From Herbaspirillum sp. alder98 (GTDB lineage Bacteria > Pseudomonadota > Gammaproteobacteria > Burkholderiales > Burkholderiaceae_D), in assembly GCF_020179755.1 (NCBI RefSeq), contig NZ_JAIUCY010000006.1, forward strand, positions 1 to 64,000: a DNA stretch of 64,000 nt, written 5' to 3'. The position numbers and the translations under genes are program-made. The notes beneath the pieces are model-generated. The model was given only the letters and a program-made list of their open reading frames with translations. It had not been told where the DNA came from and did no database searches. Positions within the stretch are counted from its first letter, which is position 1; the number at the start of each line of letters is the position of its first letter. Positions 30,811 through 41,063 of this stretch are shown here, in pieces.

Positions 30811-32400
30811 CTAATAAACATCGCGCCGATAGCGCCCCTGCTCGGCCAGCGCGATCAGGGCGTCTTCGCCCAGTATTTCCTGCAGCGCCTGGGCCACGCC
30901 GGTAGCCATGCCCTGCAAACTGCCGCATACATAGATGGCGGCGCCCTGCTCGACCCATTCGCGCAGCGCCGGGGCGGCCTGGCGCAGCCGGTCCTGCACA
31001 TAGATGCGTTCGGCGCCATCGCGTGAAAACGCCAGGTCGAGGCGCTGCAGTTGTCCCCGCGCCTGCCAGGCTTCGATTTCGTCGCGATGGAACCAGTCAT
31101 GCGCGCGCGAGCGTTCGCCGAACACCAACCAGTTGCGCACATGACCGGCCGCCACCCGCGCCCGCAAATGGGCCCGCAATCCGGCCAGCCCGGTGCCATT
31201 GCCGATCAGGATCAGCGGCCGGTCATCGGGCGGAGGATGAAAGCCGCTGTTGCGGCGAATGCGCAAGGCGATGGTGGCGCCTTCGGGGGCGTGCGCGGTC
31301 AGCCAGCCCGAGCCGATGCCAGGCCGGCCATCGGCTTGCCGCATGCGCCGCACCAGTAGATCGAGCGTGCCATCCTGCGGCAGCGAGGCGATCGAGTATT
31401 CACGATGCGGCAATGGCTTCAGGCGCGCCAGCAGGGCCGGCGCCGGCAATCCCTGCAGATCCGGGAAACCGTCCAGCGGCAACACCCGCGCCGCCAGCGG
31501 TTCGACCAGGGCCGCGTCCACCAGCGACAAGGCCCGCATGAAGCGGCGTACGTCTTCGGCGCTGTTGCGCGGGCCGATCTCGGCAATATCGCCCGCCTGC
31601 CACTGCGGCGCCGGCAGGTCGAGCGGGGTCAGGGCCAGGTGAAAGGCCGGGTCGCCCAAGCTGCCCGGGTTGAGCAGCCGCCGCTCGGCCAGCCGCCAGC
31701 GGCCATAGCTGGGCGCGCTCCAGTCGCTGTCGTCGCGGTATCCGCTGATGACGCCCAATTGATGTTGCCAGTGCCGCAGCGCGCCGTCGTCGCCGTTATC
31801 GACCTCGACCACATCGAACAATGGCTGCGCTCGACGCTGCCGCAGCCAGGCCGCCAGCGCATGACCGAAGACGCAATATCGCGCATAGCTGCGGTCGCCC
31901 AGCGCCAATACGCCGAACGACAACTGCGGCAGTGGCGCGCCAGCGTGCTGCATGCGCAGCGCGAAGCCGGCGGCGCTATCCGGGGCATCGCCCTCGCCGG
32001 TGGTGCTGGCGATGAACAACGCCCGGGTGGCCGCGGCCAGGTCATCTTCGGTCAATCGCGCCAATGGCAGCACGCGCACCGCCACGTCGCCCCGGCGCAG
32101 GCTTTGCGCGGTCTGCAGCGCAAGCTGCTCGGCAAAACCGGTCTGGCTGGCAAACACCACCAGCAGCGACTGTGCTGCGGCGTCGCCATGCCACAAGGAT
32201 TCCTGCTGACGGCGCGCCCGGCGCACCTTCAGGCCGGTGACGACGCAGAACGTCATATACGCCAGGACGATCAGGGCGGCCAGCAGCCAGCGGCCTTCGC
32301 GACTATCGGTCAGGTGCGCGCGGGCGGCGCTCCAGCTGACCAGGTTGGCGCACAGCAGCGCCAGCATCCATTGCACCAGAGTGGGCATCCTGCGCATCAC
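30811..32400 (-). CDS. Membrane-anchored flavodoxin/FAD/NADPH reductase (sulfite reductase flavoprotein-like)
   Basis: 529 aa. Two N-terminal transmembrane segments (about 8-28 and 38-58) anchor the protein, with its redox domains on the cytoplasmic side by the RRARR positive stretch. An FMN flavodoxin domain follows (about 79-215: VVFASQTGFAEQLA, ASTTGEGDAPDSA, LALGDRSYARYC). Then come an FAD domain (REYSIAS) and an NADPH domain (LILIGNGTGLAGLRAHL, YVCGSLQGMATGV), ending in the typical GRYRRDVY. It is the last gene of the iron operon, 4 bases after apbE, and probably feeds NADPH electrons to the PepSY membrane protein. Confidence 0.9.
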   Translation of the reverse strand: MMRRMPTLVQWMLALLCANLVSWSAARAHLTDSREGRWLLAALIVLAYMTFCVVTGLKVRRARRQQESLWHGDAAAQSLLVVFASQTGFAEQLALQTAQSLRRGDVAVRVLPLARLTEDDLAAATRALFIASTTGEGDAPDSAAGFALRMQHAGAPLPQLSFGVLALGDRSYARYCVFGHALAAWLRQRRAQPLFDVVEVDNGDDGALRHWQHQLGVISGYRDDSDWSAPSYGRWRLAERRLLNPGSLGDPAFHLALTPLDLPAPQWQAGDIAEIGPRNSAEDVRRFMRALSLVDAALVEPLAARVLPLDGFPDLQGLPAPALLARLKPLPHREYSIASLPQDGTLDLLVRRMRQADGRPGIGSGWLTAHAPEGATIALRIRRNSGFHPPPDDRPLILIGNGTGLAGLRAHLRARVAAGHVRNWLVFGERSRAHDWFHRDEIEAWQARGQLQRLDLAFSRDGAERIYVQDRLRQAAPALREWVEQGAAIYVCGSLQGMATGVAQALQEILGEDALIALAEQGRYRRDVY

Positions 32401-32404
32401 GCCC

Positions 32405-33412
32405 TCAGTCCAGCATCGCGGCCAACGCCGGCGTCATGCTCTCTTGCAGGCCGTGCGCCGTGTCATGCAGGAACAGCGCGGCAATATTGCGCTGGCGCGC
32501 AAACGCCATGCCCTGCTCCACGCCCAGCACCGTCAGCGCGGTGGCCAGCGCATCGGCCACCATGCACTGGCGGTGCAGCACCGTGACCGACACCGGCGCC
32601 TGCCGCAATGGCTCGCCGCTGCGAGGATCGATGGTGTGCGCGTAGCGCCGTCCATCATGCTCGAAAAAACGGCGATAGTCGCCCGAGGTAGCCACCGCCA
32701 GTCCATGCAGGGCCAGACGCAGCGCCGCACTGTCGCGCCCCGGAGGACGTTCCAGTTGCACCCACCACGGCTGGCCATCGGGCTTGACGCCCAGCCCGCT
32801 CAGTTCGCCGCCGATTTCCACCAGATAGCTGGTACAGCCCAGCGCCTGCAAGGCTTGCGCGACCAGATCCACCGCATAGCCCTTGGCGATGCCCGAGAAG
32901 TCCAGGACAGCGCCACCGGGTTGCAGCACGCGCCGCGCGGTGCGATCCAGCACGATGCGCTGCCAGCCGCAACGGGCCTGCGCCTGCTGCAATTGTGCGG
33001 TGCTCGGTAATGCGTCACGATGCGCCGGGTCGGGACCGAAGCCCCACAGGTTGACCAGCGCTCCGATGGTCGGATCGAAAGCGCCCTGGCTGTCGGCGGC
33101 CATCGTCAGCGCAGCGTCCAGCACGGTAAATAATTGCGGTGGCAGCGGGTGCCAGCTGCCGGCTGCCGCCCGGTTGTACTGCGACAGCAGCGAGTCGGGC
33201 TGCCAGGTGCTCATCTGCGCAATCACCAGTTCCAGCTGCGCCTGCACCGCTTGCAGCACCTGCTGTTGCGACGGCCCGCGCGGCGCCAGCATGGCCTGCA
33301 ACGACCAGGTGGTGCCCATGCTGGCACCGGCCAGCCGACACTGCACGACGCCCGGCGCCAGCGGCGCCGGTGCACTCAGGTCCCGCGGGATCAACAGCCG
33401 TTCTGACATCAT
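32405..33412 (-). CDS. apbE: FAD:protein FMN transferase
   Basis: 335 aa. Transfers FMN from FAD covalently onto Ser/Thr of a target protein. Signatures: GASMGTTWSLQA (about 29-40), VLDFSGIAKGYAVDLVAQAL (about 170-190), YAHTIDPRSGEPL and CMVADALATALTVLG with the Mg2+-binding Asp region. Odd: no signal peptide or lipobox. The in-frame stop of the preceding gene (TGA, four codons before the ATG) rules out a longer N-terminus. Most ApbE proteins of this type are exported lipoproteins. A DGVSGAT target is encoded two genes upstream. Confidence 0.95.
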   Translation of the reverse strand: MMSERLLIPRDLSAPAPLAPGVVQCRLAGASMGTTWSLQAMLAPRGPSQQQVLQAVQAQLELVIAQMSTWQPDSLLSQYNRAAAGSWHPLPPQLFTVLDAALTMAADSQGAFDPTIGALVNLWGFGPDPAHRDALPSTAQLQQAQARCGWQRIVLDRTARRVLQPGGAVLDFSGIAKGYAVDLVAQALQALGCTSYLVEIGGELSGLGVKPDGQPWWVQLERPPGRDSAALRLALHGLAVATSGDYRRFFEHDGRRYAHTIDPRSGEPLRQAPVSVTVLHRQCMVADALATALTVLGVEQGMAFARQRNIAALFLHDTAHGLQESMTPALAAMLD

Positions 33413-33424
33413 GCCAAGGCCTGA

Positions 33425-34255
33425 TCAGGGCAGCACTTCGAGCGTGGCGGCATAGACCGCGCGACGCTGGGACGCTTGCGGCAGCGACGTCTTCTGGTCC
33501 GACACGCTGGCCTCTACCCAGTGCATGCCCGGTCCTTCCCATTTCACGCTGAACTTGCCTTCGGCATCGGTCTTGAGCTTGGCATCGTGCAGCTTGTCGC
33601 GATAGCGGATGCCACCCGGCACCACCTCGACTTCAACTCCGGCGGCCGGCTTGCCATCCAGCAGCAGCTGGAAGTTGGCCGTGTCGCCCACCACCAGGTC
33701 GGTGGGGTTCGTGATCGGCTGCAACTCGAGGCCGGAGCCGGTGATGGCCAGGGCGGTGCGGGTCGGCTTGCCCGAAGTGGCAAAGGTTTCGATGCGGCTG
33801 CTGGCCTGGGTCACCTTCAGCTCTTGCGCATTGGCCGGCACTTCCCGGGCGAAGGCCTCGGCCGATCCGCGCCAGCGTTTCTGCTGGCCATCGACCTTGT
33901 AGCTGGCGAACAGACCGTTGTTGACCACGGCGATCTTGTAGGTCCCGGGCTGGCTCAGCTGCACGTCGAACGTGCTGCGATACTTGCCGGTGGCGGCATT
34001 GACGGCTTGCACGAACTTGCCGTCGGGCGCGGTCACGGCCAGGCCATCCAGGCGCAACGGAAAGTGTTCGAAGTAGAACAGGTCGTTGGAGACGGCGGCG
34101 TCGACCGTGACCCAGGCATCCTTGCCCGAGAAGACGGTGGCCGATGGCAGCAGCCACTGGCGGTGCGCCTGGGCCGACAGCGGCAGGCTGATCGCCAGCG
34201 CCACGGCGGCCAGCTTGATCGAGGTGCGCAGGCTGCGCTTGAGGGAAGAATTCAT
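33425..34255 (-). CDS. DUF4198 domain periplasmic protein
   Basis: 276 aa with a Sec signal peptide; predicted cleavage at SAQA-HRQW leaves His 31 as the N-terminal residue. The mature protein is beta-rich: HRQWLLPSATVFSGKDAWVTVDAAVSND, then a C-terminal Ig-like/transthyretin-type module (GVEVEVVPGGIRYRDKLHDAKLKTDAEGKFSVKW). DUF4198 proteins are often found beside TonB receptors and metal transporters. An N-terminal His is also the copper ligand in CopC-type and His-brace proteins, so metal binding is possible but unproven. 12 bases before apbE. Confidence 0.88.
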   Translation of the reverse strand: MNSSLKRSLRTSIKLAAVALAISLPLSAQAHRQWLLPSATVFSGKDAWVTVDAAVSNDLFYFEHFPLRLDGLAVTAPDGKFVQAVNAATGKYRSTFDVQLSQPGTYKIAVVNNGLFASYKVDGQQKRWRGSAEAFAREVPANAQELKVTQASSRIETFATSGKPTRTALAITGSGLELQPITNPTDLVVGDTANFQLLLDGKPAAGVEVEVVPGGIRYRDKLHDAKLKTDAEGKFSVKWEGPGMHWVEASVSDQKTSLPQASQRRAVYAATLEVLP

Positions 34256-34293
34256 GTTGGCTCCGTTCGGATGAATTGGTTATTGGTCGGTTT

Positions 34294-34854
34294 TCAGGGC
34301 TTCAGTTCAAGCGACACGGCGCCCAGTTCGCTGGCGCCTTGCACGTGGCTATTCTGGGCCGATTTCGGCGGCCAGGTGAACGGCAGCTTCACCAGTTCGC
34401 GGCCCCCCACTTCGCGCGCCGCTTCCACATTGAGCACGTACTCGCCGGCAGCCAGGTCGGCCAGCGGGCCCTTGCCCGAGACGAAATTCAGCTTCTGCTC
34501 ACCGGCCGGACGGGTCGCGCCGCTGACGCCATCGACCGGCATCTGCAACTCGCGGCCGCTGCGGCGCCACCATTGGCGCAGGTCCTTGAGCCACTTCTCG
34601 CCTTCCTTGTCGCGCTTCTTGAGGTCGTACCAGACCGCCAGGTTGGCCGCCACGCTCTGGTCGGCGCGCTCGATCCAGGCGGCCAGGTAAGGACGGTGGT
34701 ACTCCGCCACATTCAGGGTCGGCACCTCGATCCTGAGGTTCAGGTCGGCGGCCGCAGCCGGCGCCATCTGCGCGAACATCGCGGTTAATGCCAAGGCCAG
34801 CACGGTCGGCTTGAGCAAACCGGACTTTCCTGTCGAATCTTGCTTGTGCTTCAT
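34294..34854 (-). CDS. DUF2271 periplasmic protein, predicted covalent flavoprotein
   Basis: 186 aa from the ATG at 34854 (MKHKQDSTGKSGLLKPTVLALALTAMF); longer frames upstream are rejected. Sec-type signal peptide of about 36 residues without a twin-arginine motif. The DUF2271 core (LNLRIEVPTLNVAEYHRPYLAAWIER) includes D108-G-V-S-G-A-T114, exactly the ApbE flavinylation consensus Dxx(S/T)GA(T/S). FMN would be attached to Thr 114. It is the likely periplasmic electron acceptor. It lies next to the PepSY protein and two genes before apbE. Confidence 0.9.
   Translation of the reverse strand: MKHKQDSTGKSGLLKPTVLALALTAMFAQMAPAAAADLNLRIEVPTLNVAEYHRPYLAAWIERADQSVAANLAVWYDLKKRDKEGEKWLKDLRQWWRRSGRELQMPVDGVSGATRPAGEQKLNFVSGKGPLADLAAGEYVLNVEAAREVGGRELVKLPFTWPPKSAQNSHVQGASELGAVSLELKP
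34513..34533 (-). other. Flavinylation motif DGVSGAT in the DUF2271 protein
   Basis: Codons GAT GGC GTC AGC GGC GCG ACC encode D108-T114. The same signature marks covalent FMN sites in NqrC, RnfG and other ApbE substrates; the last Thr carries the flavin in those. Confidence 0.85.
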
Positions 34855-34907
34855 GAAATTGACCTCGCGGACGATTGAAGAAAATGAAAGGGATAAAGCA
34901 ATGAATC

Positions 34908-35579
34908 TCAATGAATGAACAGCACGGCCAGCAGCAGCGGCACCACCAGCCCCAGCACCACCAGCGGCCAGGTAGCGGGACGCTTGGCCGCATGGATCTG
35001 CAGCAGGAACAGGCCGGTGATGCAAAACACCAGGCACGACACCGCGAAGATGTCGATGAACCAGCTCCAGGCCGCGCCCGTGTTGCGGCCCTTGTGGAGG
35101 TCATTGAAATAACTGATCCAGCCGCGATCGGTCTTTTCGACTTCGACCGTGCCGTCCTCCAGCGCCACCCGCAGCCAGGCGTCGCCGCCCGGACGCGGCA
35201 GCGACACATAGACTTCGTCAGTCGACCATTCGGCCACCTGCTCGCCCACCGTCACCTGCATGTGCTGTCCGACCCAATCGCGTACTGCAGGCGGCAACGG
35301 CTGGCGGGCCGCCGCGCTCTTGGCATCGGCCGCAGCGACCAGGGCCTGGCGCTTGAGCGGATCAAGCAGCTTGTCAGGCAGTTGCCCATCGCGCCGCTCG
35401 ACCTTGGGATGCGCTTCGATCTGCGCCGCATGATTGAGCGTGACGCCGGTGGCGGCAAAGGCCAGCATGGCGATGAGACAGATGCCGGAACTGATCCAGT
35501 GCCATTGATGCAGATGCTTGAGCCAGAATGCGCGACGTTTCTGGTCTGCTACGGGCGTGACGGCTTGGGCTGGCTTCAT
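34908..35579 (-). CDS. PepSY-associated transmembrane protein with His-rich first helix
   Basis: 223 aa from the ATG at 35579. TM1 (about 26-50) is preceded and opened by KHLHQWHW with His 22, 24 and 27. A periplasmic PepSY-like domain follows (about 55-155: HPKVERRDGQLPDKLLDPLKRQ ... GISYFNDLHKGRNTG style ending). Then come two C-terminal helices (FIDIFAVSCLVFCITGLFLLQIH, and WPLVVLGLVVPLLLAVLFIH). Related PepSY_TM proteins (PiuB/FoxB type) are inner-membrane ferric-siderophore reductases; the histidines could hold heme. First gene of the second transcription unit, downstream of a Fur box. Confidence 0.87.
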   Translation of the reverse strand: MKPAQAVTPVADQKRRAFWLKHLHQWHWISSGICLIAMLAFAATGVTLNHAAQIEAHPKVERRDGQLPDKLLDPLKRQALVAAADAKSAAARQPLPPAVRDWVGQHMQVTVGEQVAEWSTDEVYVSLPRPGGDAWLRVALEDGTVEVEKTDRGWISYFNDLHKGRNTGAAWSWFIDIFAVSCLVFCITGLFLLQIHAAKRPATWPLVVLGLVVPLLLAVLFIH

Positions 35580-35619
35580 GGACAACACAGGGACGGCCCC
35601 GGCCACCCTTTTTCTAATT

Positions 35620-35638
35620 GGTAATAATTCTCATTATA
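35620..35638 (-). promoter_or_regulatory. Fur box upstream of the PepSY-DUF2271-DUF4198-apbE operon
   Basis: GGTAATAATTCTCATTATA matches the 19-base Fur consensus (GATAATGATAATCATTATC read on either strand) at 15 of 19 positions. It lies 41 bases before the PepSY start, in the 130-base gap after the esterase gene. This splits the locus into two iron-repressed units. Confidence 0.8.
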
Positions 35639-35709
35639 ATCCAGCTGAGCAATGAGAGGACCGCCGATCGAGTCTTTTACTTGGCGATACATAACGATAC
35701 ACAGGCCCG

Positions 35710-36663
35710 CTATGGCGCCAGCCCTGCCGCGATGCGCAGCGCCGGCTGCAACGATGCCGGCAGCATGGGCCCGTGCGACATGCCCGCGAAGATGCGCAGG
35801 TCGACCGTCATTCCCGGCACGCCACGCAGGCGCGCAGCCAGGTCGGGCAATGCCTGCGGCGGCAGCTCGAGACGTCCCGCCGGCGGCTGCCGGGCACCGG
35901 CCGCGGCCGGGCGCTCGCGTCGTTCGCTGTCGCCGGCCATGAGCCAGAGTCGCCGTCCCGTCACCGGCGGCTGGGCGCGAAAGCGCTGCTCTTCTTGCAG
36001 GATGACGCCACGTCCCCACCACAGCGATGGACTGGCGGCGATGTAATCGGCAAACAGCTGGCTGCGCGAGAACAGCGTATGCAGCACGAACAGCCCGCCA
36101 TACGAATGCCCCCATAGCGCCAGCCGGCTGGAATCGACCGGCGCCATGTCGCGCACGCGCGGCAATATCTGCTGCTCGATCAACGCCAGCATGCCGTCGG
36201 CACCGCCGCCGCGCCGACCGCGCGCCAGTTCGTCATCGACCTGGCCGGCAGGAATCGGCGGTGTGTAGTCAAACGCGCGCGCCGTCACATCGAAACGCAG
36301 GTCGGTGTCATATCCGATGGCCACGATCAGCGGCGGCGTGGCGGCATCCAGCAGCTGCAATTGCGGCTCGTCGATGGCGGCCAGCGCGGCATTGCCATCG
36401 AGCAGGACGATGGCCGGATGACCGGCCGCCGGTGGCGCCTTGCGCGGGATGCCGAGCGTGATCCGGTAGCGCCGCTGGCCATCCTCCGATGGCAGCAGCC
36501 AGCGCTCGAAGCGATAGAACGCCGAGCCGGCGTCGGCGATGGTCGGCCCCAGCGGACGCGACAGGTCCGGCTGCGCCCGCACCAGCGCCGGCGCCAAGCC
36601 GCCGAGCACTGCCAGCGACGCCGCCGCCAGCAGGCGACGGCGCGAACTGAAGTGCGCCGTCAT
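35710..36663 (-). CDS. Tat-exported siderophore esterase-like hydrolase (PfeE/IroE type)
   Basis: 317 aa from the ATG at 36663, which overlaps the receptor stop by one base (TGATG). Twin-arginine signal SSRRRLLAAASLAVLGGLAPALVRA. Esterase D/Fes-like fold: the segment IVLLDGNAALAAI, nucleophile motif LALWGHSYGGLFVLHTL with Ser 187, then ASPSLWWGRG and terminal His in FAGMSHGPML. Proteins of this type (PfeE, IroE) hydrolyse the trilactone of ferric enterobactin or salmochelin in the periplasm. The preceding receptor gene supports that role. Confidence 0.87.
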   Translation of the reverse strand: MTAHFSSRRRLLAAASLAVLGGLAPALVRAQPDLSRPLGPTIADAGSAFYRFERWLLPSEDGQRRYRITLGIPRKAPPAAGHPAIVLLDGNAALAAIDEPQLQLLDAATPPLIVAIGYDTDLRFDVTARAFDYTPPIPAGQVDDELARGRRGGGADGMLALIEQQILPRVRDMAPVDSSRLALWGHSYGGLFVLHTLFSRSQLFADYIAASPSLWWGRGVILQEEQRFRAQPPVTGRRLWLMAGDSERRERPAAAGARQPPAGRLELPPQALPDLAARLRGVPGMTVDLRIFAGMSHGPMLPASLQPALRIAAGLAP

Positions 36664-38732
36664 CAGAAGCGCTGGGTCACGCTGACCCACAGGCGGCGAC
36701 CGTCGCCGACGGTGTTGAAGTCCTGTTCATCGAGTCGCTTGTCGGTGATGTTGTAGATCGCCGCCGACAGGCTGGTGAGCTTGCCGATGTCGTAGCTGGC
36801 GCCGATGTCAGCCAGCGCATAGGCCTTGTACTGCTTGGCGCCCGCACTGGAGATGGTGGTGCCGGCGGTGCCCACGCGGGCAGCGGCGTTGATCTCCTTG
36901 CCGTGGTAGTTGATGGCGCTCCACAAGGTCAGGGCATCCGACGGTGTCCAGTCGGCGCGCAGGTTGAACATGTGCTTGGGGGTACGCGCCAGCGCATAGC
37001 CGTCATAGGTGCCGCCCTTCTGGCGCGAATCGGTATAGGTGTAGTTCGACTTCAGCGCCAGGCTGCGGGTGGCCTGCCAGCGCGCGGTCAATTCCACGCC
37101 CTTGATCGTGGCGCGGTCGATGTTGTAGCTGTACCAGAGACGATAGTTGTTGTTGGCCGACCAGCGCGCAATCGAACCATCGGCGTTGTAGACCAGGGCA
37201 TTGCTGACCTTGTCCTTGAAGTCGGTGTAGAACAAGGTGGCACCGCCGGACAGGCCGGACTGGTTGTCCCACAAGGCTGCCAGTTCCCAGCTGGTGCTGG
37301 TTTCCGGCTTCAGGTTGGGGTCGCCGATGATGACGCCGCAGGTGCCGGTCGGGCCCACGGTACAACCGGCGCCGCCGGTGGTGTAGGCATAGCCCGGCGC
37401 GATGGTGCGGATTTCAGGCGCGCGGAAACCGCGCGAGACGCCGCCCTTGATGGTCAGGTTGTCGGTGCTGTGCCAGACGCTGTAGAGACGCGGGCTCCAG
37501 TGGTTGCCGTAGATCTCGTGGTTGTCCAGGCGCAAGCCGCCGGTCAGCGCCCAGGTATTGGTCAGCTTCCACTCGTCCTCGACGAACAGCGCCTTCTGGT
37601 CGATCTGGAACTGGCGCACCAGGGTCGAGCTGACGCCCGGATTGACGTCGGTCAGCTTGGCCTGGTTCCACTGCCCGCCCAGCACCAGCCAGTGCTGCCC
37701 CAGCGGCATCGAGAGCTTGCCGTCGAGCACCGTGTTCTCGATCTTCGGCGCCCGCGCGGCCTGCACGAAGTTGTCGCTGCGGGCCGGGGTTTCGGTGAAG
37801 CTCTTGCGCTGCGCCTCTTCCACCGACAGCGACACCTCGGAAGTGGCCCAGCCCCAGCGGCCGGTATGCGACAGCGAGAAATGGTCGCGCGGATTCTCGG
37901 TATAGCTGTCGGCGGTAGTCGCGGCCTGGGCCAGCGTATGTTGCGACGAACCCGAACGACGCACCTGGGAAGTGCCGGCTTCCAGCACGATGTCGTGGTT
38001 CTTGTTGGGCGTGATCGACAGGCGTGCCGTCAGGTCGGTATCGAGCGCCTTGGTGTTGCCGTTGAGGATGCGGTCTTCCTGGCGCTTGTAGACCTTGCCC
38101 CACAATTGCAGCCCCAGCAGGTCGGTGGCGATCGGACCGTTGAGATAGAACTGGCCCTGGTAAGAATCGCCGGAGTCATTGTGCTGCTGCATGATGGTGT
38201 CGACGGTAATCGCGCCGCCCCACTTGCTGGCCACCTTCTTGGTGATGATGTTGATCACGCCGCCCATGGCGTCGGAGCCGTACAGCGACGACATCGGACC
38301 ACGCACCACCTCGATACGTTCGATGGCCGACAGCGGCGGAATATACGATTGCTCGAAACCGGCATTGCCGTTGGTGCGCGCATCGCGCGTGCTCTGGCGC
38401 TTGCCGTCGACCAGGATCAACGTATAGGCACCGGGCATGCCACGGATGAAAATGTCTTTCTCCGACGAGGTGCCGGTGACGGTGACGCCCTCCATATCCG
38501 ACAGGGCATCGGTGAGATCGCGGAACTGCTTCTTCTTCAGTTGTTCGGGCGTGATCACCGAAATGCTGGCCGGCGCATCGACCACGGCCTGCTCGAAGCC
38601 GGTGGCCGTGACCACCACTTCCTTGAGGCCCTGCGCGCCGGTTTGCGCCTGCGCGCCAACGGCCAGCAAGGTCAGCGCGGTGGCGACGGCGGCGGCAACG
38701 CGGGTTGGAATGAATCGATCGGAGTGATGCAT
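36663..38732 (-). CDS. TonB-dependent ferric-siderophore receptor, catecholate type
   Basis: 689 aa from the ATG at 38732, preceded by GGGGA; an upstream TTG at 38744 is rejected. Signal peptide cleaves near AQA-QTGAQ. TonB box-like EVVVTATG (about 38-45). Plug domain: SISVITPEQLKKKQFRDLTDALSDMEGV, FIRGMPGAYTLILVDGKRQ, YGSDAMGGVINIITKK. The 22-strand barrel ends in the required C-terminal Phe (VTQRF). An extracellular loop has a CTVGPTGTCG disulfide like FepA/IrgA. Overall FepA/CirA/IrgA-like. The Fur box at 38864-38882 precedes it. Confidence 0.93.
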   Translation of the reverse strand: MHHSDRFIPTRVAAAVATALTLLAVGAQAQTGAQGLKEVVVTATGFEQAVVDAPASISVITPEQLKKKQFRDLTDALSDMEGVTVTGTSSEKDIFIRGMPGAYTLILVDGKRQSTRDARTNGNAGFEQSYIPPLSAIERIEVVRGPMSSLYGSDAMGGVINIITKKVASKWGGAITVDTIMQQHNDSGDSYQGQFYLNGPIATDLLGLQLWGKVYKRQEDRILNGNTKALDTDLTARLSITPNKNHDIVLEAGTSQVRRSGSSQHTLAQAATTADSYTENPRDHFSLSHTGRWGWATSEVSLSVEEAQRKSFTETPARSDNFVQAARAPKIENTVLDGKLSMPLGQHWLVLGGQWNQAKLTDVNPGVSSTLVRQFQIDQKALFVEDEWKLTNTWALTGGLRLDNHEIYGNHWSPRLYSVWHSTDNLTIKGGVSRGFRAPEIRTIAPGYAYTTGGAGCTVGPTGTCGVIIGDPNLKPETSTSWELAALWDNQSGLSGGATLFYTDFKDKVSNALVYNADGSIARWSANNNYRLWYSYNIDRATIKGVELTARWQATRSLALKSNYTYTDSRQKGGTYDGYALARTPKHMFNLRADWTPSDALTLWSAINYHGKEINAAARVGTAGTTISSAGAKQYKAYALADIGASYDIGKLTSLSAAIYNITDKRLDEQDFNTVGDGRRLWVSVTQRF

Positions 38733-38863
38733 GAGGTTCCCCAAGATGATGACCCGCGCCCTCGCATGTCACCAGTACGGGCGTAACGAAGCCGGCGAGC
38801 GTTCGCCTGCAAAGTCGCACCGGTTCTGGGCTGGAGAGTCGTCAGGAAGAAATGACTTAATTT

Positions 38864-38882
38864 GCAAATGAGAATTATATTC
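38864..38882 (-). promoter_or_regulatory. Fur box in the receptor / two-component divergent region
   Basis: GCAAATGAGAATTATATTC matches the 19-base Fur consensus at 13 positions. It lies in an AT-rich patch (38850-38900) between the divergent TonB receptor and response regulator genes, so it can repress both. Confidence 0.7.
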
Positions 38883-38994
38883 ATTTAAAATTATCAAAAG
38901 TATGTCAAAGTGTGGCAACCCTCCCGGTCCCCGCCACACTTTGTCGCTCCCGGCCACGAGCGGCCAACAAGCAGCCAACACCAGCAGGAACCCC

Positions 38995-39741
38995 ATGCAA
39001 GCGCAACGTCACATCCTCGTGGTCGACGACCACCTCGACATCTGTGAACCATTGGCCGCCTACCTGCGGCGCCAGGACATGCAGGTCAGCATGGCGTTCA
39101 ATGCCGCCCAGGCGCGCCGTCAGCTGGCGCAGCAGGCGTTCGACCTGGTGGTGCTGGACGTGATGATGCCGGGTGAAGATGGCTTGTCGCTGTGCCGCCA
39201 CATCGGCCAGGCCTATGGCACACCGGTGATCCTGCTGACCGCCATGTCGTCGCTGGCCAGCAAGGTCTCGGGTCTGGACAATGGCGCCGATGACTACGTG
39301 GTCAAGCCGTTCGACCCGCAGGAATTGCTGGCGCGCATCAAGACCGTGCTGCGCCGCTTGAGCCGTGCGCTGCCGGCGGCAGTCATGCCAGACACCGCCA
39401 GCCAGGCCATCCATCGCTATGTGTTCGACGAGTGGACGCTCGACGTCGAACGTCGCGAGCTGCTCGATCGCGATGGCGTGGCGGTCACCTTGTCGAGCGT
39501 CGAATACCGGCTGCTGCGGGTGCTGGTGGAACATCCCAATACCGTGCTCTCGCGAGACAAGCTGATGGATCTCACCGCCGGCGCCGATGCGCAAGTGTTC
39601 GACCGCAGCATCGACAGCCAGGTCAGCCGCCTGCGCAAGAAGCTCGAACCCGATCCGCGCCGACCCAGCCTGCTCAAGACGGTATGGGGCAACGGCTATC
39701 TGCTGGCGGCGCAGGTCAGCAGCGAAGCGGCGGCATCGTGA
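38995..39741 (+). CDS. OmpR-family response regulator (PfeR-like position)
   Basis: 248 aa from the ATG at 38995, preceded by AGGAA. Receiver domain with ILVVDDHLDICEPL, phosphoacceptor Asp 55 in LVVLDVMMPGEDG, and Lys in DYVVKPFDPQELLARI. Winged-helix DNA-binding domain at about 140-240 (EWTLDVERRELLDRDGVAVTLSSVEYRLLRVLVEHPNTVLSRDKL). It is coupled to the kinase gene through a 4-base overlap and divergent from the receptor. Expected to activate receptor expression on sensing the ferric siderophore, by analogy with PfeRS. Confidence 0.92.
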   Translation: MQAQRHILVVDDHLDICEPLAAYLRRQDMQVSMAFNAAQARRQLAQQAFDLVVLDVMMPGEDGLSLCRHIGQAYGTPVILLTAMSSLASKVSGLDNGADDYVVKPFDPQELLARIKTVLRRLSRALPAAVMPDTASQAIHRYVFDEWTLDVERRELLDRDGVAVTLSSVEYRLLRVLVEHPNTVLSRDKLMDLTAGADAQVFDRSIDSQVSRLRKKLEPDPRRPSLLKTVWGNGYLLAAQVSSEAAAS

Positions 39742-41063
39742 CACTGTGGCCGCGCACCATGGCCGCCCAACTGGTCGGCCTGCTGCTGATCGGGCTGGTG
39801 GCGGCCCATGCGGTGGGATTGTTATTGGTCGTGACCAATGGCGAAGCCATCCATTCGATCTCGCGCGAACAGATGACCGAACATGCGGCCGTCGCCTGGC
39901 GCCTGGGAACACTACCCGAGGCGCAGGCGCGTCAGGCGCTGGCGGCGGCCCGCGATGACAACGCCACCTATGCCCTGGCCACCGCCAGCGACGTCTCGCC
40001 CGGGAATGAAGAGGGCCTGGACCAGGACCTGATTCGGACGCAACTGGTGAATTCGCTCAGGCTGCCAGCCGATGCCGTGCGCGTCAGCCTGGTGCGGCTG
40101 GACAGCCGACGCGGCGACCTGCGCATCTCGCTGCGCACGCCCGGCGCACTGTGGGTCAATACCCTGCAGCATCCTGTGATGTCGCAGGCCTGGCGTCGTC
40201 CGCTGCGTTTTTCGGTGCCGGTCAGCACCTTGCCGGTGCTGGTGATCGTGTTCCTGTTCGTGCGCCGCATCCTGCGCCCGATCAAGGCGCTGGCGCATGC
40301 CGCCGAACGCGTCAGCCGCGGCGAACAGGTCGAGCCGCTGCCGGTCACGGGGCCGTCCGAAGCGCGCGAGGTGACCCAGGCCTTCAACCTGATGCAGCAG
40401 CGCATCACCCGCTTCGTGGATGATCGCACCCGCATGCTGGGTGCCATCAGTCACGACCTGCGCACACCGATCACTTCATTGCGGCTGCGAGCGGAACTGG
40501 TTGACGATGCGCCCCTGAAGGCGGCGATGATTCGCACCCTCGACGAAATGCGCGTGATGGTCGAGGAAACCCTGCGCTTTGCGCGCGACGATGCGCGCAA
40601 CGAAGATACCCGCGAAATCGACCTGCAGGCGCTGTTGCGCGATGTCGCCGACGAACAGCGCGCCCAGGGACGCGACGTGCAGGTGCACGACCTGGCGGCG
40701 AGCGCGCTGCCCTACCGCTGCCGTCCGGTCAATCTCAAGCGGGCCCTGAGCAACCTGGTCGACAATGCCGTGCACTACGGGCGGCGTGCGCGACTGGCGC
40801 TGACCAACGGGCCTGCCGGCATGCTCGAGATCCACGTGGACGATGACGGCCCGGGCATTCCAGCCGACCGCCTGCAGGACGTCTTCAAGCCCTTCGTACG
40901 GCTGGACCCGGCGCGCAGCCGCAACCGCCAGGATGCCAGCAATGTCGGACTCGGCCTGTCGATTGCGCGCTCCTGCATCGAAGCGCACGGCGGCCGGCTG
41001 GAGCTGGAAAACCGTAGCCTCGACCAACCCGGGCTGCGGGCGGTCATCAGCCTGCCGACCTGA
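39738..41063 (+). CDS. Sensor histidine kinase (PfeS-like position)
   Basis: 441 aa from a GTG at 39738 that overlaps the regulator stop (GTGA). TM1 at about 10-32 (AAQLVGLLLIGLVAAHAVGLLLV), a short periplasmic sensor region of about 110 residues, TM2 (VPVSTLPVLVIVFLFV), then HAMP (RRILRPIKALAHAAERVS). The H-box is LGAISHDLRTPITSLRLR with His 239. The ATPase domain has N-box NLKRALSNLVDNAVHYG, DDDGPGIP and GLGLSIARSCIEAHGG. The periplasmic domain is the likely ligand sensor for the siderophore or iron. Confidence 0.92.
   Translation: MTLWPRTMAAQLVGLLLIGLVAAHAVGLLLVVTNGEAIHSISREQMTEHAAVAWRLGTLPEAQARQALAAARDDNATYALATASDVSPGNEEGLDQDLIRTQLVNSLRLPADAVRVSLVRLDSRRGDLRISLRTPGALWVNTLQHPVMSQAWRRPLRFSVPVSTLPVLVIVFLFVRRILRPIKALAHAAERVSRGEQVEPLPVTGPSEAREVTQAFNLMQQRITRFVDDRTRMLGAISHDLRTPITSLRLRAELVDDAPLKAAMIRTLDEMRVMVEETLRFARDDARNEDTREIDLQALLRDVADEQRAQGRDVQVHDLAASALPYRCRPVNLKRALSNLVDNAVHYGRRARLALTNGPAGMLEIHVDDDGPGIPADRLQDVFKPFVRLDPARSRNRQDASNVGLGLSIARSCIEAHGGRLELENRSLDQPGLRAVISLPT

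Follow-up and report, generated by a model that had tools for sequence, protein, structure and literature searches.

The locus at positions 30811–41063 of a 64,000-nucleotide stretch of DNA from Herbaspirillum sp. alder98 (the window, to which all coordinates refer and which belongs to a 5.34 Mb genome) holds two adjoining gene units, each with its own Fur box. Unit A, a catecholate cassette, consists of a two-component system, a TonB-dependent receptor and a siderophore esterase. Unit B is a five-gene reductase module with a PepSY-family membrane protein and a DUF2271 protein that carries a flavinylation motif. We read the two as separate Fur-controlled units, unit B being a general periplasmic ferric reductase that unit A probably feeds in the Herbaspirillum clade of the window, and we put the probability of this reading at about 0.6. 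It is built on features observed directly, namely the gene content, the motif, a set of conserved histidines, the conservation of the Fur boxes and the occurrence of each unit independently of the other. In the scheme that we propose, the receptor and esterase would take a ferric catecholate, the presumed substrate, into the periplasm and hydrolyze it. Electrons from reduced nicotinamide adenine dinucleotide phosphate (NADPH) would pass through a flavin adenine dinucleotide (FAD)/flavin mononucleotide (FMN) reductase and the PepSY protein to FMN on DUF2271, and from there to ferric iron. The iron released by unit A would be handed over to unit B, which would be the resident system and would also work without unit A.

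Gene content and predicted Fur control of the locus

The nine genes and two Fur boxes that the original prediction, made from the letters of the DNA alone, had placed here are indeed present, and the gene identities and the flavinylation motif were borne out, with Pfam recognizing all nine genes. Read from right to left they are the regulator and kinase pair, the receptor, the esterase, and the PepSY, DUF2271, DUF4198, ApbE and flavodoxin reductase genes. The OmpR-type response regulator (38995–39741, plus strand, with an alternative start at 38902; Response_reg and Trans_reg_C) and the EnvZ-type sensor histidine kinase (39735–41063, plus strand; HAMP, HisKA and HATPase_c) are transcribed divergently from the CirA-like TonB-dependent receptor (36663–38732, minus strand), whose end overlaps the start of the PfeE/IroE-type siderophore esterase (35710–36663, minus strand; Pfam Esterase). 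Beyond a gap of about 130 bases follow, all on the minus strand, the PepSY_TM_like_2 membrane protein (34908–35579; PF16357, 279 bits), the periplasmic DUF2271 protein with its DGVSGAT motif (34294–34854; 168 bits), the secreted DUF4198 protein (33425–34255; 202 bits), the FAD:protein FMN transferase ApbE (32405–33412; 296 bits), which is the sole ApbE match in the genome, and a CysJ-like reductase with flavodoxin and FAD/NADP-binding domains (30811–32400; Flavodoxin_1 78.7 bits, NAD_binding_1 38.2 bits).

Judged by sequence, the esterase belongs with the PfeE-type trilactone esterases: in the PDB it matched PfeE (6gi0, E value 1e-55 over 273 residues) and IroE (2gzr, 3e-46). Its GHS serine (S187) and H297 were invariant in an alignment of six sequences, a twin-arginine-like SRRRLL stretch was read by eye in its leader, and its closest named relatives are from Herbaspirillum. 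The receptor, on the other hand, is not of the PfeA/FepA type, being nearer to the colicin I receptor CirA (384 bits) among solved structures than to the ferric enterobactin receptors 5mzs (221 bits) and 1fep (181 bits), which we take to be PfeA and FepA. The two-component system is an OmpR/EnvZ-type pair, for which PfeRS is only an analogy because both proteins score best against the OmpR/EnvZ models of NCBIfam, and below the model cut-offs. Regulators directly upstream of a receptor and esterase in Pseudomonas and its kin reached 96–120 bits (response regulators) and 73–88 bits (kinases) against the window pair, and those of Azoarcus indigens reached 288 and 385 bits. The likeness to the PfeRS-PfeA-PfeE system of P. 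aeruginosa lies in the combination of a periplasmic PfeE-type esterase, a TonB receptor and a two-component system, while the receptor is nearer to CirA and the regulators are divergently transcribed and distant from those beside Pseudomonas esterases.

Fur sites were sought with a 7-1-7 consensus, allowing up to 3 mismatches. The PepSY operon has its own box in the gap behind the esterase (35619–35633, 2 mismatches), and the second box (38869–38883, 3 mismatches) lies in an intergenic block between receptor and response regulator that is conserved in Herbaspirillum (38860–38892). With a third match inside the receptor gene, the window holds 3 matches against 0.48 expected; because 4 of 100 shuffles also reached 3, this count is only modest evidence. 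Across the whole genome the pattern matched 110 sites, compared with 29 for a reversed control. The conservation of both boxes in the sequences of other Herbaspirillum is stronger evidence than the match count. The block with the receptor/regulator box is near-invariant across eight relatives from the genus, and a Fur-like core was found upstream of PepSY in 23 of the 24 Herbaspirillum loci examined, L274 being the locus where it was not found. At L285, where the module sits at another site, the core lies 239 bases upstream of PepSY, and the PepSY-operon box is kept also in Herbaspirillum without the esterase cassette. The predicted Fur control of both units thus held up at the level of two conserved putative binding sites.

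Further upstream of PepSY lies a conserved block with a tandem repeat, TGTATC-n4-TGTATC (35676–35701, minus strand), which is a candidate activator box. The repeat was found as TGTATC-n4-TGTATCG in the window and in the other 15 clade members examined, cassette-bearing or not, and in none of 9 Herbaspirillum loci examined outside the clade; a search of the alder98 genome that tolerated up to 3 mismatches found this one copy alone. As a site for the regulator of the cassette it was rejected, being kept in five clade genomes that are cassette-less at this locus.

Linkage of the cassette and the module

The original prediction had expected genes for DUF2271 and ApbE to co-occur with siderophore esterases across genomes. 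Samples of 116 genomes from the family, 398 from the phylum and 34 from Herbaspirillum were surveyed, together with the best 80 of 368 esterase loci in named genomes. In the family, DUF2271 was found in 40/116 genomes and esterase relatives in 25/116. Among 41 fetched DUF2271 neighborhoods (window excluded, response-regulator rows left out of the comparison, and some contigs short, as at L083, L091 and L095), 34 were of the type with PepSY and the other seven had no PepSY. The esterase lay beside the module in 2 of these 34, both of the same genus, and was absent from 32. In the phylum, DUF2271 scored over the cut-off in 65/398 genomes and the esterase in at least 57/398, at most 5 esterase candidates having been scored per genome, so that the counts are lower bounds. 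By listed places, the two genes lie within 20 kb of each other only in the alder98 genome (1/398), and in the runner-up among over-cut-off pairs, that of G242, the distance is about 36 kb. Neighborhoods were fetched for 40 of the 68 over-cut-off DUF2271 places and for 20 esterase places, the rest being judged by listed coordinates; no esterase appeared in the 40 and no module in the 20. Among the named esterase loci the module, scored as present when two or more of four genes exceeded 60 bits, adjoins 9, all from Herbaspirillum, and none of the 71 others. The phylum, neighborhood and named-locus counts led us to reject a widespread linkage of esterase and DUF2271, and the expected co-occurrence fails outside Herbaspirillum.

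Within the genus every esterase detected is linked to DUF2271. DUF2271 was detected in 27/34 genomes and the esterase (E value up to 1e-30) in 11/34; DUF2271 lies about 1 kb from the esterase in all 11 esterase-bearing genomes, and the 7 genomes that have no DUF2271 all lack the esterase too. This is what would be expected if esterase and flavin chain were obligate partners in one dedicated deferration pathway, and the Fur box on each unit fits that idea. So does the finding that at least 21 phylum genomes have both genes against 9.3 expected (65 × 57 / 398; Fisher p 5e-5, uncorrected for kinship or genome size). We nevertheless consider such an obligate partnership improbable: no linkage was seen outside the genus, the module stays where the cassette is gone, the Fur boxes are separate, and clade genomes without the cassette still have the repeat ahead of PepSY. 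The single complete deferration pathway that had been predicted is thus not supported as a general design, since the linkage is limited to Herbaspirillum and the cassette can be dispensed with.

The history of the cassette was traced in 25 of the 27 module-bearing Herbaspirillum genomes (all but G533 and G534), of which 11 have the cassette and 14 do not. With or without the cassette, the site has the same neighbors, CorC on one flank and MocR plus, in most cases, GST on the opposite flank. Where two pairs of close relatives were compared (L283 with L075, L076 with L273), the missing stretch is cleanly bounded, beginning directly behind GST and stopping directly ahead of the repeat. In the module tree, whose deep nodes have support of only 40–90, all the deeper lineages of the window's clade carry the cassette, and L284, L283, L278, L065 and L076 lack it. 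The reductase is thus independent of the esterase, since all five keep its operon with the Fur box. A second group within the genus (L274–L277, L279–L282) has no cassette between the same flanking genes, and L084, a locus of another genus, branches between the two Herbaspirillum groups. A history without regain needs five losses of the cassette, and loss followed by regain is possible. Because the cassette and module trees are congruent, loss is more likely than separate gains by different species, which we rejected. The opposite arrangement was found in Azoarcus indigens (L262), where relatives of the kinase, regulator, receptor and esterase occur but the reductase module does not. The presence or absence of the cassette at one site in Herbaspirillum and its occurrence without the module in A. 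indigens argue that units A and B are separate. The genus offers a natural test, with close genomes that do or do not have the cassette between the same flanks and that keep the reductase operon.

Chance might also have brought the cassette next to the module in an ancestral genome, with no functional link beyond Fur. The limitation of the arrangement to one clade and its absence from five genomes of that clade would suit such neutral neighbors, as would the failure to find by eye a second regulatory element common to the two promoters. The arrangement persists, however, in ten further genomes, with esterases 67–82% identical to that of the window, an esterase beside a PepSY-family gene recurs elsewhere with another type of reductase (see below), and 8 of the 40 DUF2271 neighborhoods fetched from the phylum contain a relative of the receptor (>300 bits). 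On balance we find mere neighborhood unlikely. The linkage is a clade-specific neighbor relation in which a partnership of the two units is plausible and the cassette has repeatedly proved dispensable.

The reductase module as a proposed periplasmic ferric reductase

The five-gene module is the published PepSY-like flavinylation system, and a role in iron reduction has already been proposed for it in print. A survey counted 3220 PepSY-like flavinylation clusters, 2833 with DUF2271, 1500 with DUF4198 and 231 with a TonB-related gene; it demonstrated flavinylation of a DUF2271 protein, proposed reduction of iron, also from siderophores, and cited a PepSY-like relative, VciB, as a reported iron reductase (PMC8238504, Meheust et al. 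2021). The window locus agrees with that system in having a PF16357 PepSY gene, a DUF2271 gene with the [S/T]GA[S/T] motif, DUF4198 and ApbE in one gene run. It differs in the catecholate cassette that adjoins it in one clade, the word esterase being absent from the main text of that paper. The predicted electron route from NADPH through the reductase and PepSY to FMN on DUF2271 stands as a proposal that the same paper had already made for the class (PMC8238504).

Several features of the proteins are consistent with this route. T114 of the DGVSGAT motif is conserved in 99% of 84 DUF2271 sequences and would be the residue to which ApbE attaches FMN. PepSY has five conserved histidines, H27, H50, H162, H196 and H223, which recur in 99, 89, 100, 85 and 94% of 79 sequences, respectively. 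A structure model (predicted local distance difference test score, pLDDT, 91.8) has helices at 10–53, 168–197 and 203–222, and would place H27 and H50 on the first and H162 and H196 close to opposite ends of the second. Such a placement would fit two stacked hemes, and the protein may thus serve as a diheme transmembrane electron wire. The reductase scored 223 bits against the CysJ model, under its cut-off, and has a hydrophobic stretch at its N-terminus as read by eye; it is presumably the cytosolic electron donor. In DUF4198 (model pLDDT 90.8), His31 stands directly after an A-Q-A and would become the N-terminal residue of the mature protein if the signal peptide is cleaved there, as we infer. 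Of 84 sequences, 99% keep H31 and 80% keep H64, and in a set of 32 H31 was invariant and H64 nearly so. His31 is therefore a candidate N-terminal-histidine metal site, and one guess is that DUF4198 holds the released metal through it. A PDB sequence search with PepSY gave no match, and the absence of FoxB among the listed fold matches of the PepSY model does not speak against such a fold. PDB searches with DUF2271 gave matches only at E values above 1, and those with DUF4198 gave two closely similar sequences labeled phosphoribosylglycinamide formyltransferase (best E value 4e-9). Chains of 9mhi–9mho match the DUF4198 profile (4e-9 to 6e-9), and the formyltransferase label may be wrong.

Related loci have been described elsewhere. 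In Caulobacter crescentus, CC3059-3063 encode a transporter, DUF2271, DUF4198, ApbE and a sulfite-reductase flavoprotein and are strongly induced without iron or Fur (PMC3751524); a PepSY-family protein is named in this locus, and insertions there lower fitness in ethylenediaminetetraacetate (EDTA) (PMC11870441). This cluster (also CCNA_03155-03159), which is Fur-repressed and induced by iron limitation, resembles unit B in its gene types and their listed order, and neither a receptor nor an esterase is part of it as listed. In Alteromonas, DUF4198/DUF2271 pairs lie near iron-responsive receptors and are induced under iron limitation, and a PfeRS-like pair accompanies a receptor and a PepSY gene (PMC7190382). 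The FoxB, HiuABC and XusABC operons likewise link a PepSY-family membrane protein to a siderophore receptor, but the passages describing them mention neither DUF2271 nor ApbE, whereas Herbaspirillum has PF16357 and a predicted covalent flavin.

Some points weigh against our reading. The 11/11 pairing in the genus is probably one ancestral arrangement and not 11 independent events. Fold searches with the PepSY model yielded no convincing solved relative. The ferrous importer is also uncertain. Searches of the alder98 genome with FeoB_C, FeoB_N and FTR1 gave no match to FeoB_C, Era as the best match to FeoB_N, and an FTR1 permease at 119 bits. FeoB was accordingly rejected as the importer, and the reduced iron would need another route of entry, perhaps FTR1. 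Both feoB and ftr have been reported for H. seropedicae (PMC6037834), so that FeoB content differs within the genus. Finally, unit B could serve another metal, because the DUF4198 protein whose structure has been published binds Ni2+ via an N-terminal histidine with a dissociation constant of 18 nM (PMC12537917). Together with the undetected FeoB, this finding would favor a Fur-repressed periplasmic redox or metal system, for nickel or cobalt for example, that is not mainly an iron reductase. Set against that are the Fur control and EDTA sensitivity of the Caulobacter locus (PMC3751524, PMC11870441), the iron-limitation induction of DUF4198/DUF2271 in Alteromonas (PMC7190382) and the reported iron reductase VciB (cited in PMC8238504), and we regard such a system as very improbable.

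The module also varies in composition elsewhere in the family. In the genus g23 (L062, L063, L064), a single PepSY gene is surrounded by duplicate copies of DUF4198 and DUF2271, and a second, lower-scoring type of DUF2271 (L096–L099, L101, L102) has ApbE and reductase matches and no PepSY or DUF4198 match.

Esterases beside a different PepSY protein

Work on PfeE leaves open which reductase acts on the hydrolyzed siderophore and how iron crosses the inner membrane, and the siderophore reductase of P. aeruginosa has been called unidentified (PMC8001512). Of the 80 named loci, 18 encode a large PepSY_TM protein no more than 5 kb from the esterase, none of them from Herbaspirillum (18 of the 71 others). 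The search was by BLAST with the protein of one esterase locus (L209), and the count refers to that subfamily. In 14 of the named loci (L193, L195, L201, L206–L209, L221, L225, L229, L232, L235, L243 and L255) the gene stands directly behind the esterase on the same strand. All ten proteins scanned with Pfam (L209, L217, L193, L235, L212, L129, L140, L208, L225 and L243) scored above the cut-off for PF03929 (197–254 bits), a confirmation that covers 8 of the 18 named loci. In the named set the hosts comprise Pseudomonas, Stutzerimonas, Azomonas, Halopseudomonas, Thauera and one gammaproteobacterial bin. With the same query, PepSY_TM turned up in 5 of 20 esterase neighborhoods from the phylum compared with 1/40 and 0/41 DUF2271 neighborhoods, the controls being DUF2271 loci and not random ones. 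At least two records are common to the named and phylum esterase samples, as L123 and L124, two of the 5 phylum loci, lie on contigs equal in length to those of L195 and L221. In the set labeled A3, PepSY_TM genes were sought among the 25 families listed, so that single genes may be missed. The number of independent pairing events is small because many of the loci come from kin of Pseudomonas.

By gene neighborhood, then, an esterase with a putative PepSY-family reductase recurs outside Herbaspirillum. In the parts of the literature on PfeE with PepSY that were covered, this pairing was not found described. The general idea of such a pair is already in print for Parabacteroides distasonis, in which a PepSY gene and an esterase were noted in one operon (PMC13142918). 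The PepSY_TM proteins beside PfeE-type esterases are candidates for the reductase of the PfeE pathway, and in relatives of Pseudomonas the pair would be a second and simpler candidate system. Tentatively, and with the odds somewhat against it, the missing reductase could in general be the esterase-adjacent PepSY protein, its class being swapped between lineages: PF03929 in Pseudomonas, Thauera and others, and the whole covalent-flavin chain of PepSY and DUF2271 in Herbaspirillum, there in a genome in which no FeoB was detected. This recurrent pairing of esterase and PepSY is the point worth following.

In five esterase loci from four genera (L209, L217, L224, L239 and L262), a methyltransferase with a PF10119 regulatory domain was also seen near the PfeE-type esterase; we know of no role for such a protein in catecholate use. 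Around the locus itself, 20 of the window's 48 other open reading frames were scanned and belong to ordinary chromosomal families.

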